Of a stretch of DNA of 64,000 nt, positions 1 to 62,360 are shown one piece after another. The DNA lies in NCBI GenBank assembly GCA_002077065.1, contig NAJO01000023.1, positions 248,001 through 312,000 on the forward strand, given 5' to 3'. How positions within the stretch are numbered: the first letter of the stretch is position 1; every line of letters starts with the position of its first letter. The stretch comes from Cryoendolithus antarcticus. Its lineage: Eukaryota > Ascomycota > Dothideomycetes > Cladosporiales > Cladosporiaceae. A program made the translations under genes and the position numbers. A model generated the notes under the pieces. The model saw nothing but the letters and a program-made list of their open reading frames with translations, had not been told where the DNA came from and searched no databases.

Positions 1-1468
1 CTATTACATCCGAAGTAGCAGAATAGTGCGACTGGACTAGCGGTCTGATCTGAGATTGTTGTGTCGTGTGAGCTGGTGGAGGCAGGGCTTGCGCTTGCCT
101 CGCCGCATACTGCATCTGTTGTCCATTGCTCCCGTGAGAGCGCTGCTGAGTCTGCGCTTGCGTAGTCGCATAATGGCCCTGTTGGACGCCTTGCTGTACC
201 GAGATCGCTTGAGGTACATGGGCCGTCTGCACGCCTCCATGCGATGTTGTTCGCGTGCTCAATGACGAAGCTTGCGTCTGCACCGATTCTGTATATGTTG
301 AGCTTTGCATGGAGCCCACGACAGGCGGCCGTACATGGGCCTGGCCACTCGAATGCTGTGTAAATAGCTGTGGAGGTACCACTTGACGATCAGGAGGCGT
401 TTGTACCGCTCTGGACAGAGTCATCTGCGCACTAGATGGCGAGGGACGCATCACCGCGGGTGCTGTAAACGTTGGACTCTGTACCGGAGTTGCGGAACAT
501 GGCTGTACATGGGGTGGGGTGCTGTACTGCTGTGTGGATTGCTGCATCGATGCGGTCTGAGCTAATGGGGGCGTTTGTACAGCACCGTACGAGGTTGCCC
601 GCATGTTTGACGAAGAGGACTGGATCTGCGCCGGTGCCATGATTGTTGGGGCTTGCATAGAACTTGCGATTTGCCGCTGACCGTATGCTTGCGCACTGGA
701 CTGCTGACTACTTTGCCGCGTGTCGACGACTTGACCTAGCGCGGGCGCTTGGACGGCGCTGTATGATATAGTCCGCGTTGTCGACGAGGAAGATCGCATT
801 TCCGCTGGTGCTGTGAATGTTGTAGTCTGCATCGGGCTGACTATGTGCGGTTGTGTGTTCGTATGGGTCGTGGATTGCTGCATATCATATGTCGTCGGCT
901 GAGATGAGGTATCTTGCATTGTATGCGTGATTCGGGACGTTGAATGATGTCGCTCGAGCGGCGCACGCTGAGCCAGGATTTGTTGCTGGTGCTGCTGCTG
1001 ATACAGAGGCTGCTGGACCGGTGCGAGCTGAGACGGGATCGGTGTATGCTGTACATATTGGGTCTGCTGCACTGCAGGAGGTGATGGTAGAGGCTGCTGG
1101 TGCTGATTCTGCTGGCCAGGTGCTACTACTGGCGCTGAGTACGTTCGCTGCATCTGCTGCACAATCTGCGGCTGTACAGCATCCTGCGGCACGACCTGCT
1201 GCGACCCCTGCCTTGGCACACGCCGTACAGTTCTCGTCCTAATAGTTTCCGAAGTAGGTTGATACGGTCCAACGTGACCAGCGTACTCAAAGATGCCATC
1301 GCCTTTCGGTCTACTTGATTCTGGACCCTCTACGATGCGCGCAAGGCCGTTCTCAACACGCCAGCGCCGGAAGTTAGGATCCACCCAGCCAGGTGGTGGA
1401 GGGCTGCGAGGTCGAGGGGCTGGAGCCCGTGGAGTTTGAGGTATGTGCGGCTGTTGATTGGGGTCCAT
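1..1468 (-). CDS. Q/P/S-rich low-complexity protein, 3' end cut by window edge (family copy A)
   Basis: An uninterrupted frame reads from an ATG at 1468 leftward through position 1, at least 489 codons with no stop. The protein starts MDPNQQPHIPQTPRAPAPR, then has a short ordered-looking stretch (about residues 25-75, with GWVDPNFRRWRVENG). A very long Gln/Ser/Thr/Pro-rich region with many VQQ, TQQ and MQQS repeats follows. The start context (AACATGGACCC) is the same as that of the neighbouring copy B, and proline runs of the PRSPPPP type recur in the other family copies. The Cys/His modules seen at the C-terminus of other copies would lie beyond the window, so membership rests on composition, start region and pairing. 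Function unknown; the composition is prion-like. Sequence between 1 and about 1240 is strongly repetitive. Confidence 0.6.
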   Translation of the reverse strand, partial: MDPNQQPHIPQTPRAPAPRPRSPPPPGWVDPNFRRWRVENGLARIVEGPESSRPKGDGIFEYAGHVGPYQPTSETIRTRTVRRVPRQGSQQVVPQDAVQPQIVQQMQRTYSAPVVAPGQQNQHQQPLPSPPAVQQTQYVQHTPIPSQLAPVQQPLYQQQHQQQILAQRAPLERHHSTSRITHTMQDTSSQPTTYDMQQSTTHTNTQPHIVSPMQTTTFTAPAEMRSSSSTTRTISYSAVQAPALGQVVDTRQSSQQSSAQAYGQRQIASSMQAPTIMAPAQIQSSSSNMRATSYGAVQTPPLAQTASMQQSTQQYSTPPHVQPCSATPVQSPTFTAPAVMRPSPSSAQMTLSRAVQTPPDRQVVPPQLFTQHSSGQAHVRPPVVGSMQSSTYTESVQTQASSLSTRTTSHGGVQTAHVPQAISVQQGVQQGHYATTQAQTQQRSHGSNGQQMQYAARQAQALPPPAHTTQQSQIRPLVQSHYSATSDVI

Positions 1469-1804: not shown

Positions 1805-2836
1805 CTACCGCTTATGCCTCCACATCTCGTGCCTGTGATCGCAGTAACGGTCCCCATCCCACCACTGGCCCCTGTAATTCTTCGGCAAAGGTACCTTGTT
1901 CGCCCTTCTAAACCCTTCCCTATCAAGATTATAGAACCCATCTCCATCCCCAGGCGGCGGTTTGATCACTCGATCGATGACTGTAGGCGCTCCATTGACT
2001 TTCTCCACAGGAACTCCATCAGCATGGCGCCCAGCCATGACTTCTTCCACGTGGCGATGCGATACGAGATGGTGCCCACCGCCGCAAAGATACCCCAACT
2101 TGACAGGGTACCACCTCTAATTGTGCGGGCATACTCCCAAGGCAGCCTGAGTCAGCTCATCTGAGACGTCGTCATCGTACTCCCGGAGACGCCGGCGGCC
2201 TTTTCTCACGACTGACTGTCGAGCTGCGCCACCCCACTGTGATGTGTCGTGGCCGTGAATATCAGTACTGTCCTCAAGGCCTGGCCGTCGACGATATGGA
2301 CTCCGGCTACGAGAGCGAGAGGATGTCGTATCGCTTGATGTAGGCGTAGATGAGTAGCTCGGGGACGGCGAGTGCCTCCGTGATTGCGATATGTGTTTTG
2401 ACTGTACAGCATTGCCGATATGTAAATCTTTGGGCTGCTTCACGAGTGCACCCTCGCTCTCCTTCTGTGATTCTAGCTGAGGACCTATAAATCGTTCCAC
2501 TAGAGACAGAGTCTGCGCCATAGCTCCGGGTTGAGGACCTGCTCGTGCACTACTGTTCATCTTTGCAGTGCGAGTCGAAGAGCTTTGTGACACCATCCGC
2601 GAGCTCGATGGCTTAGCTGCTGGTGCAATGGTCTGCGACCGTGACTTTAGGCCTTCGATCTGTCGCTGAGGCTTCTTGCTTGATGGTTCAGCCACTGATG
2701 CCATAGTCGGCGACTGTGGCTTTGGCCCTTCGATCTGTCGTTGAGGTTTCTTGCTAGATGAAGATACGGATGATTCGGCATGTCGCAGTACGCGACGTGC
2801 TAAGGTGAGTTTTTGCTGTGATTTCTTAGGGTCCAT
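1805..2836 (-). pseudogene. Family copy B: disordered S/K/R-rich protein interrupted by an in-frame TAG inside its first Cys/His module
   Basis: The frame opens at ATG 2836 (MDPKKSQQKL) and runs 239 residues to a TAG at 2117-2119, then stays open in the same frame to a second stop at 1805. The upstream part is low-complexity, with two 25-residue repeats (SSKKPQRQIEG, residues 27-76) and an SR/RS-rich patch. Just before the TAG the protein reads GVCPHN; after it, RWYPVKLGYLCGGGHHLVSH. Aligned to the other copies, the first Cys, Pro, Trp, Gly, second Cys, Gly and His all fall at exactly the expected spacing, and the TAG takes the place of a position that is Tyr, Phe or Asp elsewhere. The distal part ends with WDGDRYCDHRHEMW, a blurred version of the second module. 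Either a recent nonsense mutation or a read-through gene. A 36-nt intron (gtatgc...gtcaag) could remove the stop but is unusually short and would delete the conserved Cys-Pro. Confidence 0.6.
2609..2758 (-). repeat. Two tandem 75-bp coding repeats in family copy B
   Basis: Residues 27-51 and 52-76 of copy B are a direct repeat beginning SSKKPQRQIEG, followed by a more diverged half. This is an in-frame 75-bp duplication. Confidence 0.75.
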
Positions 2837-30987: not shown

Positions 30988-31619
30988 TCAGCCTCTCATG
31001 AGGCCAGACCTCCCTCCACGAGGCACGTCGCGATCTGGTGCGTACCCACACGTATCGCAAACAACAAGACGATTCACCCATCCAAAGCCATGACCGTAGC
31101 GGCCGTCCTTGCAGCGCGGCACACGAAATAGAAGAGCAGCATGGCGTTCATCGACTTCGTCGTATTGCCTCATGCCTTCTAGAGTCCCTTCGACCCACAC
31201 TGCCCATTCCTCATGATTGATGACATTGCGATAGCGTGCCTCTGCCTCTCTGGCTTGATGAGGCGTTGCAGGAATGATTCTTGGGCGGCGCTGGCCGCGG
31301 TCGGTGGCAGATTGCTCTTCGTTGGTGATGTAGTGGCGGCCGTTCTGGCAGATCCTCCCCGCCTGGTGAGTGCAGCCAGCCGTAGCCTTCTGGGCAAAGG
31401 ACTATGCCGTAGGGGTGGGCACCAGACGCGATCGCGTTCCGTGACGCATGCATCGAGGCGGTTGTATTGAGGTGAGGTGGCGGAGGCCGACTCCTAGCTT
31501 CATTGGACTGGGATTGCGTGAATGGAGGTGGAGCGGACCTGCGACCAAGACCGTTGGTTAGCTGAGTGGTCGTAAAGGGACTTAACAGTGGAAATCCATT
31601 GCTTCCGTGTAGGTGTAGC
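30988..31619 (-). pseudogene. Family copy D: Cys/His-module protein with a one-base frameshift
   Basis: On the minus strand a frame from an acceptor-like ctctag at about 31620 reads an N-S-P-T-rich lead-in and then the first module, CPEGYGWLHSPGG. There a run of four C on the plus strand (31357-31360), one base longer than needed, shifts the frame. Skipping one base restores RICQNGRHYITNEEQ, then EEWAVWVEG and the second module RCKDGRYGHG...VVCDTCG, ending at a stop at 30988. Apart from that base the copy is intact and as conserved as copy C just upstream. No Q-rich N-terminal part or clear start codon was found, so it looks 5'-truncated as well. A homopolymer sequencing error is possible. 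Confidence 0.6.
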
Positions 31620-31791: not shown

Positions 31792-33389
31792 TCAGGAGAA
31801 CAACATGCTCATCCACGCTCTAGCCGCATTTGCCATGTCTTGTAGATAGAGTGGCGACGGCGGCATCAGGGGGATGACATGACCGCATTCCGCGCACACC
31901 ATTCTATCCGCGGGAGACTGGTAGTTGTGACCGAAACGGCCATCGCGACAGCGCGGCGGAGGCTCGAAACTCGCACCGTACTTCTCCTTTACCTCTTCGG
32001 CAGTGCTTAGCGAGTGGACCCAAACAGCCCATCCGTTCCTGTCGTGGACGGTGGCGTAGCGCATTTGTCCGGCCTGGAACTGTTGTGGAGTAGCGCGTGG
32101 GACGTGAGAGCTAGTGCATTCGCCTCGAAAAGCAGCGTCTATAGCTTGATTCGAGACGTAATGTTGACCGTTCTGACAGAGTCTCCCGCCGCGGGCATGA
32201 AGCCAGGAGTAGCCGTCTGGGCACTTCGGAAGACAGCGTGCGGTCGTGGCCGATGAAGTGACTGTTGTGGAAGTACCCGTAGAGATTTTGGTAGAGGTTT
32301 GAGGCGGTGGAGATCGCGGCCGCGATCCAGCTTTGTCAGCCCGTGCCACGGAAGAGTTCGACGTCCTGACCTGTTTGTTACTTGAACGACATCGTGAGGG
32401 GAAAAGACATTGAAGAAAAGATCGCACACGTACCACTTAGTAGACTCTGGCAAGACTTGAGGGGGTGGCGAGCGGGGCCTCGGAGGAGATTTCGGCAGGA
32501 CTTGAGGAGGTGGTGACGGTGGCTTCGGAGGCGGCTTTGACAACACTTGCGGAGGTGGTGACTGTATCCTCGGAGGTGGAGGTGGAAGAATTTGTTTCGG
32601 AGGCTCCTTGACCTGGACTTGCACATACTGCTGTTGCTGAACATGCTCTTGCGCATGCTGCGGTTGTCCGATGTGCTGTTGTCGCACGTGGTTGTGCTGA
32701 ATCGGGGGCGGCTGCTGTTGTTGCCCATAGACTTGTTGGACCGTCTGCTGCTGCTGAACACGTCCTTGCTGGACTCGCTGCTGCGTCATATGCTGCTGCT
32801 GAGCTTGGGCGTGCTGCTGCTGCCGAACATATTGCTGATGCACTACCTGCATGTGTTGATTGATTGGCGAAGATCGAGCCATTTGCTGTTGTTGCACATA
32901 TTGTCGTTGCACTTGTGGTTGTTGGACAGGCCGCTGCTGTACGTATTGCTGCTGTACTTGCGGTTGGGAAACAAGCTGTGGTGGAGGAGGCAGTCGCTGT
33001 ACATACTGCGCCTGTACGTAATACGTCTGTTGTACCGGTTGCGGTAGCTGTGGCGGCTGCGAGTATAGCGGAGGTTGCTGGACTTGCGACTGATGCTGGT
33101 GTTGTAGCTGCAGCTGCGCGGATGAGGTCGTCGTGGTCGAAGTGGTCGTCGTCGTAGTTGAGGTGCTCTGCTGAAGAGCATGCTCGCCATATGCGGTCTG
33201 TGCTACTCCCGCTTGCAGCTGGCCATGCTGCTGCAATGGGAACGGGTTCTGGTTCTGGGGGCCAGATGGTCGTTGAGCAGATATAGCAACTGGCTGCACT
33301 TCTTGTAGCGGTCTGATGGCGAGCTGTCCATGATTCGGAGATCGAAGCGGGTTTTGTGGATGAGCCCAGTTCGGATGATTACTTGACAT
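31792..33389 (-). CDS. Q/P-rich protein with two C-terminal Cys/His modules (family copy C, intact)
   Basis: Exons 33389-32434 and 32365-31792 give 509 residues. The acceptor ggtcag (exon start 32365) was chosen because it keeps phase and completes a Trp codon. Residues 1-230 are Gln-dominated with VQQ/QQQ repeats, and 230-320 form proline repeats (three units of the type PPPQVLPKSPPRPRS). A Ser/Thr linker leads to module 1 at 367-389 (CPDGYSWLHARGG...CQNGQHYV), a Trp motif NGWAVWV, and module 2 at 458-480 (CRDGRFGH, then CAECG). Module 2 spacing C-x6-H-x10-C-x2-C suggests zinc binding. This is the complete reference copy in the window. I recognise no known family; location and function unknown. 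Confidence 0.8.
32434..33350 (-). repeat. CAG/CAA-rich polyglutamine and proline-repeat coding region of copy C
   Basis: On the plus strand this is a dense run of ctg/ttg triplets; on the coding strand it gives Gln-rich and then PPPQVLPKSPP-type repeats. Such tracts are prone to length change. Confidence 0.7.
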
Positions 33390-60058: not shown

Positions 60059-61639
60059 ATGGCGCCGCCTCCACCCAACCAACAAATCATCGCGAAAGGG
60101 CCACTGGGTCACTATCATCAGCAGGCATGGCTTCAGCCGTCCGCTAGGCAGTCATCGCCCACCCAGCAACCACAAGTTCGTCAACCACCACCCGTGCAAG
60201 GGTTTCCTGCTCAGCAGCTGGTAAAACAGCTACCGCCGCCGGTATACCAGACGCAAAGCCAACAGACCAGCGTTCAGCAGCCGATACGCCAGCAGCCATA
60301 TGGACAACAGGCAGTAATCCATCAACAAATTTTTCAGCAGGTCGGAGGTCAGCAACTCGTAGCTACGCATGTCTCTCCGCCTGTGCCTGTCATCGCTGGA
60401 TATCAGCAGCAAGTAGGCGGCTACGCTGGCGGCTATGCGCAGCAAGGTATGGCACATGCCCAGCACGCCCAGCGGTTGTCTTCAAGTAGCTCAACAACGA
60501 CGTCAACCACTACGACTACGACACAGACCACGCAGCAGCAACAACGCTACCAGCAGCAGTCTGCTGGGCAGGTACAGCAATCAACTCTTACCCCTCTGAT
60601 CCAACATCACCAACAGCTACAGATCCAACAAGCACCGCCTGCGCCACAAGCACAGCATCACCAACAGCTGCAGATAAGACAGGCATCAGCTGCCCCTCAG
60701 GTACATCACCAACAGCAGCAGATCCAGTATGTGCAGCGAGTGCAGCCACCTCCTCCTCCCGCACCGGTCAAGTACACGTCACCGCCCCCACCGGTCCAGT
60801 ATGTTGCACCTCCGCCAGTGCAGTACATCGCGCCGCCTCCACAAGCTCCCGTACATCATACTACAAACTACACGACAATAATCCAGGCCGCGCCTGCTCC
60901 GCTGCCTCCTCAACAGCAAGTCGTTCAGACTTCGTCGGCACAAATCGTGCAGCAGCAACGACCACGCTGGCCGCCACCACAAGTGCATGTCAACATCACG
61001 AACGTGTCCTCGTCCTCGTCGTTACAGACCAGGCCCAAGTCGCCCCCACCCCAGGTGCGACACCCATCTCCGCCTTGTCAGCTGGCTGTGCCGTCTCCTC
61101 CCAGGCACTCGTCTCGTTACGATCAGGGCGCCAACAAGTCCACTACCAACACCACAACAACAACAACAATAACGAACATCACTCGTACCGAAGCGGAGTC
61201 CCGTGGCGCCGACTTCCTCGAACGCTACGATCTCGAAATGGCCCGCCGCCTGCTCGTCGTCTGCCCGCCCTGCCCCGCAGGCTTCGGCTGGGAAGCCCAT
61301 GAAGACGGCTACGAGTGCGAAGCGGGCAGCCACTTGATCCCCTACGCCGAAACGGATGCCTGGATAGCTGGGCTTAGACCGGACGGAAATATCATTGGCA
61401 AGACGTTCACTGTAGATGAGGTCAGGGAGAGGTATCTCAGGCGAGCGATCCAGAACGGGATGGACCCACGGCTTGCGGGGGAGCTGTCGAGGATGTCTGA
61501 GCAGCGAGGTGGAGGACGAAGGGGTGGAATGCAGAGGCGAGGGCGCATGTTTGACGACGACGATGATGACGACGATGACTTATTTAGTGCATTCAGCGCG
61601 GCGCGGCGGAGGCAGGGGATGAGGGATCCATTTAGGTAG
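60059..61639 (+). CDS. Q/P-rich protein with the first Cys/His module only (family copy E)
   Basis: Single exon, 526 residues from ATG 60059 (MAPPPPNQQIIAK). Residues 1-340 are Gln/Pro-rich (AQHHQQLQI repeats, PPPPVQYVAPPPVQYIAPPP). A Thr/Asn stretch (TTNTTTTTTITNITRTEAE) precedes a charged helix (FLERYDLEMARRLLVV), then module 1, CPAGFGWEAHEDGYECEAGSHLI, where all key residues are at the family spacing. Module 2 is absent: the protein ends in an Arg/Gly-rich part and nine consecutive Asp before FSAFSAARRRQGMRDPFR. The complete-module unit F lies just downstream on the same strand. Function unknown. Confidence 0.75.
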   Translation: MAPPPPNQQIIAKGPLGHYHQQAWLQPSARQSSPTQQPQVRQPPPVQGFPAQQLVKQLPPPVYQTQSQQTSVQQPIRQQPYGQQAVIHQQIFQQVGGQQLVATHVSPPVPVIAGYQQQVGGYAGGYAQQGMAHAQHAQRLSSSSSTTTSTTTTTTQTTQQQQRYQQQSAGQVQQSTLTPLIQHHQQLQIQQAPPAPQAQHHQQLQIRQASAAPQVHHQQQQIQYVQRVQPPPPPAPVKYTSPPPPVQYVAPPPVQYIAPPPQAPVHHTTNYTTIIQAAPAPLPPQQQVVQTSSAQIVQQQRPRWPPPQVHVNITNVSSSSSLQTRPKSPPPQVRHPSPPCQLAVPSPPRHSSRYDQGANKSTTNTTTTTTITNITRTEAESRGADFLERYDLEMARRLLVVCPPCPAGFGWEAHEDGYECEAGSHLIPYAETDAWIAGLRPDGNIIGKTFTVDEVRERYLRRAIQNGMDPRLAGELSRMSEQRGGGRRGGMQRRGRMFDDDDDDDDDLFSAFSAARRRQGMRDPFR

Positions 61640-61841
61640 GTCTTGCGAAAATCTGGCACTGGAAAGCGTAGGGCAGCTCAGGTAGGCTTGCTAAAAACTA
61701 TGCACGGAGATACCATAACGTATAGAGCGTCTCTGCCCTCCGAAGAATGTGCGATGGACTTCGTGACGTGACCCTGTTAACAAGCACCGCCAGGGTCATG
61801 AAGCCAGTGGTGCTGCTTTTTCGATTATCGTTTTCAGCTGA

Positions 61842-62360
61842 CCAAGCTCAACTCATCGACCGAGCACGTCGCCACTCGCGCAGACCAGACCGCACAATCC
61901 AAGACCACGATCACCGCCGCCTCAGACCATCACCACAAGTCCCTGCTTAAGGTCCGCGATAACAACCAACGCGAGCCGCTCGCGTCGAGACGGCACACCA
62001 CAGTGCCCAGAAGGCGACGGCTGGCTCAAAGCCCCTGGCGGCGCCATCTGCCAGCGCGGCACCCACTTCATCACTCACTCAGAACAAGACGCCGATGACC
62101 AAGGTCAACGCGAACGCAGCGGACCTGTCATCTTACGCGCGACTCCAGCGCAGTACCAGCAGGCGTACGCTCGGTATGGTGTGGACTTTTACCGGCACAA
62201 CAGTGGTGCCTGGGCTGGAGGGAGCCTCGCTACCGATCCCGACGTGCGTGTTGGGGAGTTTGGTGGATTGTCGCGGTGTCGTGACGGGCGTCATGGGCAT
62301 GACTCTTTGGTGACGATGGGAAGGGTTCTGTGCCAGATTTGTGGCTGCGAATTGAGGTAG
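61842..62360 (+). pseudogene. Family copy F: solitary Cys/His-module unit without a Q-rich head
   Basis: A frame open from 61842 to a TAG at 62358-62360. It begins Pro/Ser-rich with NPRPRSPPPQTITT (matching PRPRSPPPQTSTK just before the modules of copy C), then module 1 CPEGDGWLKAPGGAICQRGTHFI, a middle part with AYARYGVDFY and SGAWAGG, and module 2 CRDGRHGH...LCQICG. No clear ATG, so the start is not fixed; a tttcag acceptor lies at 61837, and an exon upstream may exist. It is the fourth copy in the window in which module 1 can be read straight through apart from D's shift. It could be a 5'-truncated copy or the last exon of an undetected gene. Confidence 0.5.

Follow-up and report, generated by a model that had tools for sequence, protein, structure and literature searches.

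The window, a stretch of 64,000 nucleotides (positions 248001-312000 of contig C66 of Cryoendolithus (Rachicladosporium) antarcticus), contains copies of a gene whose products combine a glutamine- and proline-rich (Q/P-rich) N-terminal part with one or two small Cys/His modules near the C-terminus. Seven paralogues are present on C66, A-F in the window and G just left of it, and each has a partner, marked here with a prime, on an inverted duplicate block of a second contig, C73. Both modules are present in C, D and F; A, B, E and G have module 1 only, A in full and G its first half. These copies form a single family, as originally predicted for B to F; A and G were not part of that prediction. 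The family is real, under selection, unnamed and partly decayed.

Gene copies and their modules

The features are as follows (positions in the window; modules of B, C, E and F and module 2 of D were located by a six-frame search).

31792-33389, minus strand: copy C, intact two-exon gene
33389-32434, minus strand: exon 1 of C, Q/P-rich
32433-32366, minus strand: intron of C
32365-31792, minus strand: exon 2 of C, with module 1 and module 2
32161-32223, minus strand: module 1 of C
31882-31950, minus strand: module 2 of C, C-x6-H-x10-C-x2-C-G, with profile matches to rubredoxin/TFIIB knuckles
30988-31619, minus strand: copy D, broken in the window block; module 1 at about 31334-31397 across two frames
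31045-31113, minus strand: module 2 of D
60059-61639, plus strand: copy E, with Q/P-rich N-terminal part, E-type module 1 and Asp-rich end
61271-61333, plus strand: module 1 of E
61637-61639, plus strand: stop codon TAG of E, inside the GTAGGT donor at 61636
61842-62360, plus strand: copy F, open frame without a usable ATG
62004-62066, plus strand: module 1 of F
62277-62345, plus strand: module 2 of F
1805-2836, minus strand: copy B, one-module type, with the nonsense codon TAG within module 1
2069-2131, minus strand: module 1 of B, with the in-frame stop inside
1-1468, minus strand: copy A, 5' part only; module 1 lies left of the window, at about 247.4-247.5 kb of C66
L029:900-3014 (C66, left of the window) and L030:4142-5379: copy G, module 1 cut by a stop after CGG

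The span proposed for C, 31792-33389, was confirmed as a gene with its ATG at 33389, one 68-nt intron and a product of 509 residues. The frames of C' change at the same place as the intron junction of C, supporting this gene model. In G, the stop after CGG of module 1 is found in both blocks, and a matching second half follows downstream in another frame, which suggests an intron inside this module.

Copies E and F had been taken for separate proteins. They are most likely one gene, encoding an E-type module 1 and then, in this order, module 1 and module 2, because F has no ATG of its own, the stop of E lies inside a splice donor and an annotated protein of Oleoguttula sp. CCFEE 5521 (LTR95_008971, 682 residues) corresponds to an E-F fusion. 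The end of E reads ...TTTAG/GTAGGT, with the TAG stop sitting within the donor. Splicing from the donor GTAGGT to the acceptor TCATAG on C73 would link E' and F' in frame; the resulting RDPFKSITSPLAQTG aligns without gaps with RDPFRPALSPLAQTG of the Oleoguttula protein. The window copy lacks the AG of this acceptor (61838-61888), and the same donor could instead be joined to any of four other in-frame AGs; among them, the CAG giving a 253-nt intron has the most usual form. All these junctions are computed gene models. The two blocks thus differ at separate places, with the acceptor AG missing in the window and a stop and a lost Cys in F'.

The relatives of E found in public databases are LTR95_008971 and B0A48_01460, the latter being the E homeolog of C. 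antarcticus itself. Both are true relatives, 84% and 90% identical to E over the C-terminal part, respectively, and both are hypothetical proteins for which the sources give neither a function nor a Pfam domain. Conservation in related species, proposed as support for a family, accordingly extends to one further species in the case of E and F. The paralogues C, D' and F share 38-39% identity, C and C' 63% (exon 2), and E and E' 90% (C-terminal part). Gln makes up 16-28% and Pro 11-17% of the N-terminal arm in E, C, A and the Oleoguttula protein. Gln runs in these arms do not exceed four residues, so that the term polyQ should be understood as Gln-rich rather than as long Gln runs.

Conservation of the Cys/His modules

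Module 1 was defined by C1, P2, W7, G13, C16, G19 and H21, residues that the original prediction considered invariant and identically spaced in copies B to F, with module 2 shared by C, D and F. The patterns were found as described in C, E, F and B, except that module 1 of B includes a TAG; in D, module 1 is split between two frames, and the common spacing holds only across the frame break. Strict invariance did not survive the inclusion of further copies. In module 1, H21 is replaced by Tyr in the open copy D', and B' has Cys at W7 and Ala at G13. Module 2 of Oleoguttula has Glu in place of G7, and in the stop-bearing F' Ser takes the place of C19.

Five two-module sequences (C, C', D', F and the F part of the Oleoguttula protein) were aligned. 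There is no gap inside either module and there are 27 gap letters between them; invariant gap-free columns make up 30 of 152. Of the seven candidate ligand columns, six are invariant and one, H21, fails. The chance of six such columns being jointly invariant is about 4e−5, a generous figure, as the failing column is omitted and the alignment includes two pairs of close relatives, C/C' and F/Oleoguttula F. Gap-free columns holding any Cys are invariant in 5 of 8 cases and those holding any His in 1 of 17, this one being H8 of module 2. All four candidate ligands of module 2 (C139, H146, C157 and C160 in the numbering of C exon 2) are invariant in the five sequences, and its first half reads C-x-DGR-x-x-H in all six aligned sequences. 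Module 1 has three widely shared candidate ligands, and two of its Cys residues alone are common to all nine aligned sequences. Therefore, the proposal that both modules are zinc-binding units can be well argued for module 2, with its four invariant ligands and a knuckle of the rubredoxin/TFIIB type, but not for module 1, with three shared candidates of which H21 is replaced in D'.

The ribbon of eS31/RPS27A has one CxxC pair before and another after a hairpin. It was considered for module 1, but the Cys pattern differs: the second part of the module is C-x4-H and upstream Cys residues, present as CPPC in E, C-x3-C in C and C-x4-C in D', are absent from A, B' and F. Chains of eS31 appear repeatedly among the Foldseek matches to the E model, each with an E-value of at least 1.9.

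A single folded domain of about 115 residues might instead be formed by both modules together with their linker. Seven invariant columns between the modules (A77, G81, T92, Q95, R102, Y103 and W115 of C exon 2) and the same order of both modules in C, D and F are in line with this possibility. However, A and B carry module 1 without module 2, and in E its own module 1 has no module 2 directly after it. In addition, the linker varies in length, as seen from the 27 gap letters, and the predicted local distance difference test score (pLDDT) of the C model falls below 50 at residues 106-119 and 130-136. We regard a single domain as possible, with the odds somewhat against it.

Selection on the family

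Fixed spacing alone had been offered as proof of selection, but the copies share descent, and a test of the ratio of nonsynonymous to synonymous substitution rates (dN/dS) was needed. Between the blocks, dN/dS is 0.17 for C exon 2, 0.15 for the C-terminus of E, 0.26 for F, 0.16 for D after the break and 0.13 for B after the stop; bootstrapping sets upper bounds of 0.24-0.43. All five pairs are clearly under purifying selection, their values (0.13-0.26) lying far below 1, the level that the original prediction had named, together with a lack of homologues, as counting against it. Six neighbouring open reading frames (ORFs) have dN/dS of 0.02-0.23, and the family therefore evolves at about the pace of its faster neighbours. 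The synonymous rate (dS) is 1.67 for the C pair versus 0.35-0.76 for the other family pairs, which makes the C ratio a rough one.

These data bear on the possibility that the array is decaying, in which case the common spacing would reflect recent shared descent rather than present function. Damage is seen in several copies: B has its stop, D is broken by a frameshift inside module 1 (D', its homeolog, is open through both modules), and on C73, A' has two TGA and one TAG codons, C' a frame break in the Q-rich part, and F' a stop together with the C19 to Ser replacement of a ligand. On the other hand, E is open in both blocks, E-F is whole in Oleoguttula, and the upper bounds of dN/dS stay at 0.24-0.43 in all five pairs. 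Low dN/dS past a stop or frameshift would show, at the most, that the damage occurred recently. Taken together, decay as the explanation of the shared pattern appears improbable.

The high dS of C/C' was found in exon 2 (window 31795-32364 versus L027:4104-4706), next to D/D' with a dS of 0.39. It may reflect gene conversion, a separate origin of C or fast local change.

Domain searches and structure models

The original prediction recognised neither module as a named domain, and this still holds. In Pfam searches of the family members no model reached its cut-off, and NCBIfam gave one weak TFIIB match (E-value = 0.038, one of five members). Below its gathering score of 29 bits, the Pfam model PF08271 (Zn_Ribbon_TF) matched C' with 16.6 bits, again in one of five members. 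When a module 2 profile was compared with PDB sequences, 14 of the 32 listed were rubredoxins and the fourth was TFIIB; the best whole-sequence E-value, for a rubredoxin, was 0.0014. Searches with module 1 produced no convincing match. In the C model, residues 51-100 of exon 2, which cover module 1 and the following stretch, have block mean pLDDT of 71-84, and the models of C and E, both of low confidence, place the strands and helix of module 1 in the same register. The module 2 block of the C model has pLDDT of 51-62, and ribbons appear in the fold search only as weak rows.

Canonical zinc ribbons have a CPxC-like first knuckle and a CxxCG second one, and TFIIB uses C, H, C and C as ligands. 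Module 2 shares the second knuckle, V-C-x2-C-G, with zinc-ribbon and rubredoxin-like proteins (TFIIB PF08271, rubredoxin, L32 and RpoM), and likewise has four candidate ligands in two halves in the order CHCC. Because its second knuckle is of the rubredoxin/zinc-ribbon type, module 2 is best read as a CHCC zinc-ribbon-like site. It is likely a variant of such a site, ribbon-like in the second half and unusual in the first.

It is very unlikely that module 1 lies outside the cell or in the wall as a disulfide-bonded unit resembling the WSC domain, with a C1-C16 bridge: PF01822 does match C across module 1 (13.6 bits, E-value = 0.08) and two module 1 Cys alone are common to the nine aligned sequences, but the match is below the gathering score of 27.8 bits and confined to one of five members, the N-termini MSSNHPNWAH and MAPPPPNQQ have by eye no hydrophobic signal, and the CHCC set in module 2 is one that usually marks an intracellular zinc site.

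A proposed variant zinc-ribbon family

The overall best explanation, to which we assign a probability of about 0.5, is a local family with a Q/P-rich arm and a Cys/His C-terminal domain that includes a ribbon-like module 2. Several observations weigh against it. The first half of module 2, C-x6-H with invariant DGR, is not a canonical knuckle, and the rubredoxin E-value of 0.0014 sums two knuckles, with the best single stretch, 14 residues of the second knuckle, having an i-Evalue of 0.5. The structure models are poor (mean pLDDT of 55.8 for C and 54.3 for E, four sequences each), and Foldseek returned no match with an E-value below 0.39 for the C model or below 1.9 for the E model. Furthermore, module 1 has no shared fourth ligand, and damage affects several copies in one block or in both.

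The family is known to date from two fungi, C. antarcticus and Oleoguttula sp. CCFEE 5521. In the proposed scheme, its proteins begin with a long, probably disordered Q/P-rich arm and end in a small Cys/His-rich domain. Module 2 is predicted to hold one zinc ion through C1, H8, C19 and C22, and module 1 to pack as a β-hairpin, a strand and a helix that C1 and C16 hold together, whether or not a metal is bound. With low confidence, the C-terminal domain would have a protein or nucleic acid as its partner, and multivalent or activator-like contacts would come from the arm. Judging from this anatomy (Q/P-rich arm, small metal-type domain and, by eye, no signal peptide), a role as an intracellular binding regulator or scaffold seems the most likely, though its probability is low. 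Tentatively, module 1 may be a new small domain (hairpin, strand and helix, with C1/C16 and usually H21) occurring in one- and two-module proteins, which together with the variant CHCC ribbon would define lineage-restricted Q-rich regulators, made by gene and exon duplication and undergoing sorting after genome doubling.

If the zinc-ribbon reading is true, the orphan genes of rock-inhabiting black fungi gain a selected family that has no name and ends in a variant zinc ribbon. It would overturn no known principle and would be of interest to orphan-gene specialists. The duplicated block offers a natural comparison, with the same seven copies on two contigs and some undamaged on one side only.

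Duplicate blocks and genome background

Whole-genome searches with six queries (C, F, E, B, A and D') covered the assembly of 46,965,068 bases in 149 contigs, and clear relatives were confined to the C66 block (A-G) and the inverted C73 block. One of these searches also gave five weak matches outside both blocks, and the three of them that were read are not members.

PMC5502844 describes the C. antarcticus genome, obtained from Illumina reads, as 47.4 Mb in 267 contigs with 18,781 genes, a contig number unlike that of the assembly searched here. For Rachicladosporium sp. CGMCC 3.30118, a size of 24.6 Mb and a total of 10,933 genes are given in PMC12560822. From these figures it is a fair inference that the C. 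antarcticus genome is doubled. According to PMC10739867, the species was formerly named Rachicladosporium antarcticum CCFEE 5527.

The whole window (1-64000) corresponds to 64-135 kb of C73 (L026, L027, L028 and L030) as an inverted duplicate, and between the blocks the six neighbouring ORFs have 78-97% protein identity. The protein identity of E to its homeolog is 90%, and that of the two homeologs to the Oleoguttula relative is 85 and 87%. The distance between the homeologs is thus nearly that to Oleoguttula, which would fit an old doubling or a hybrid origin.
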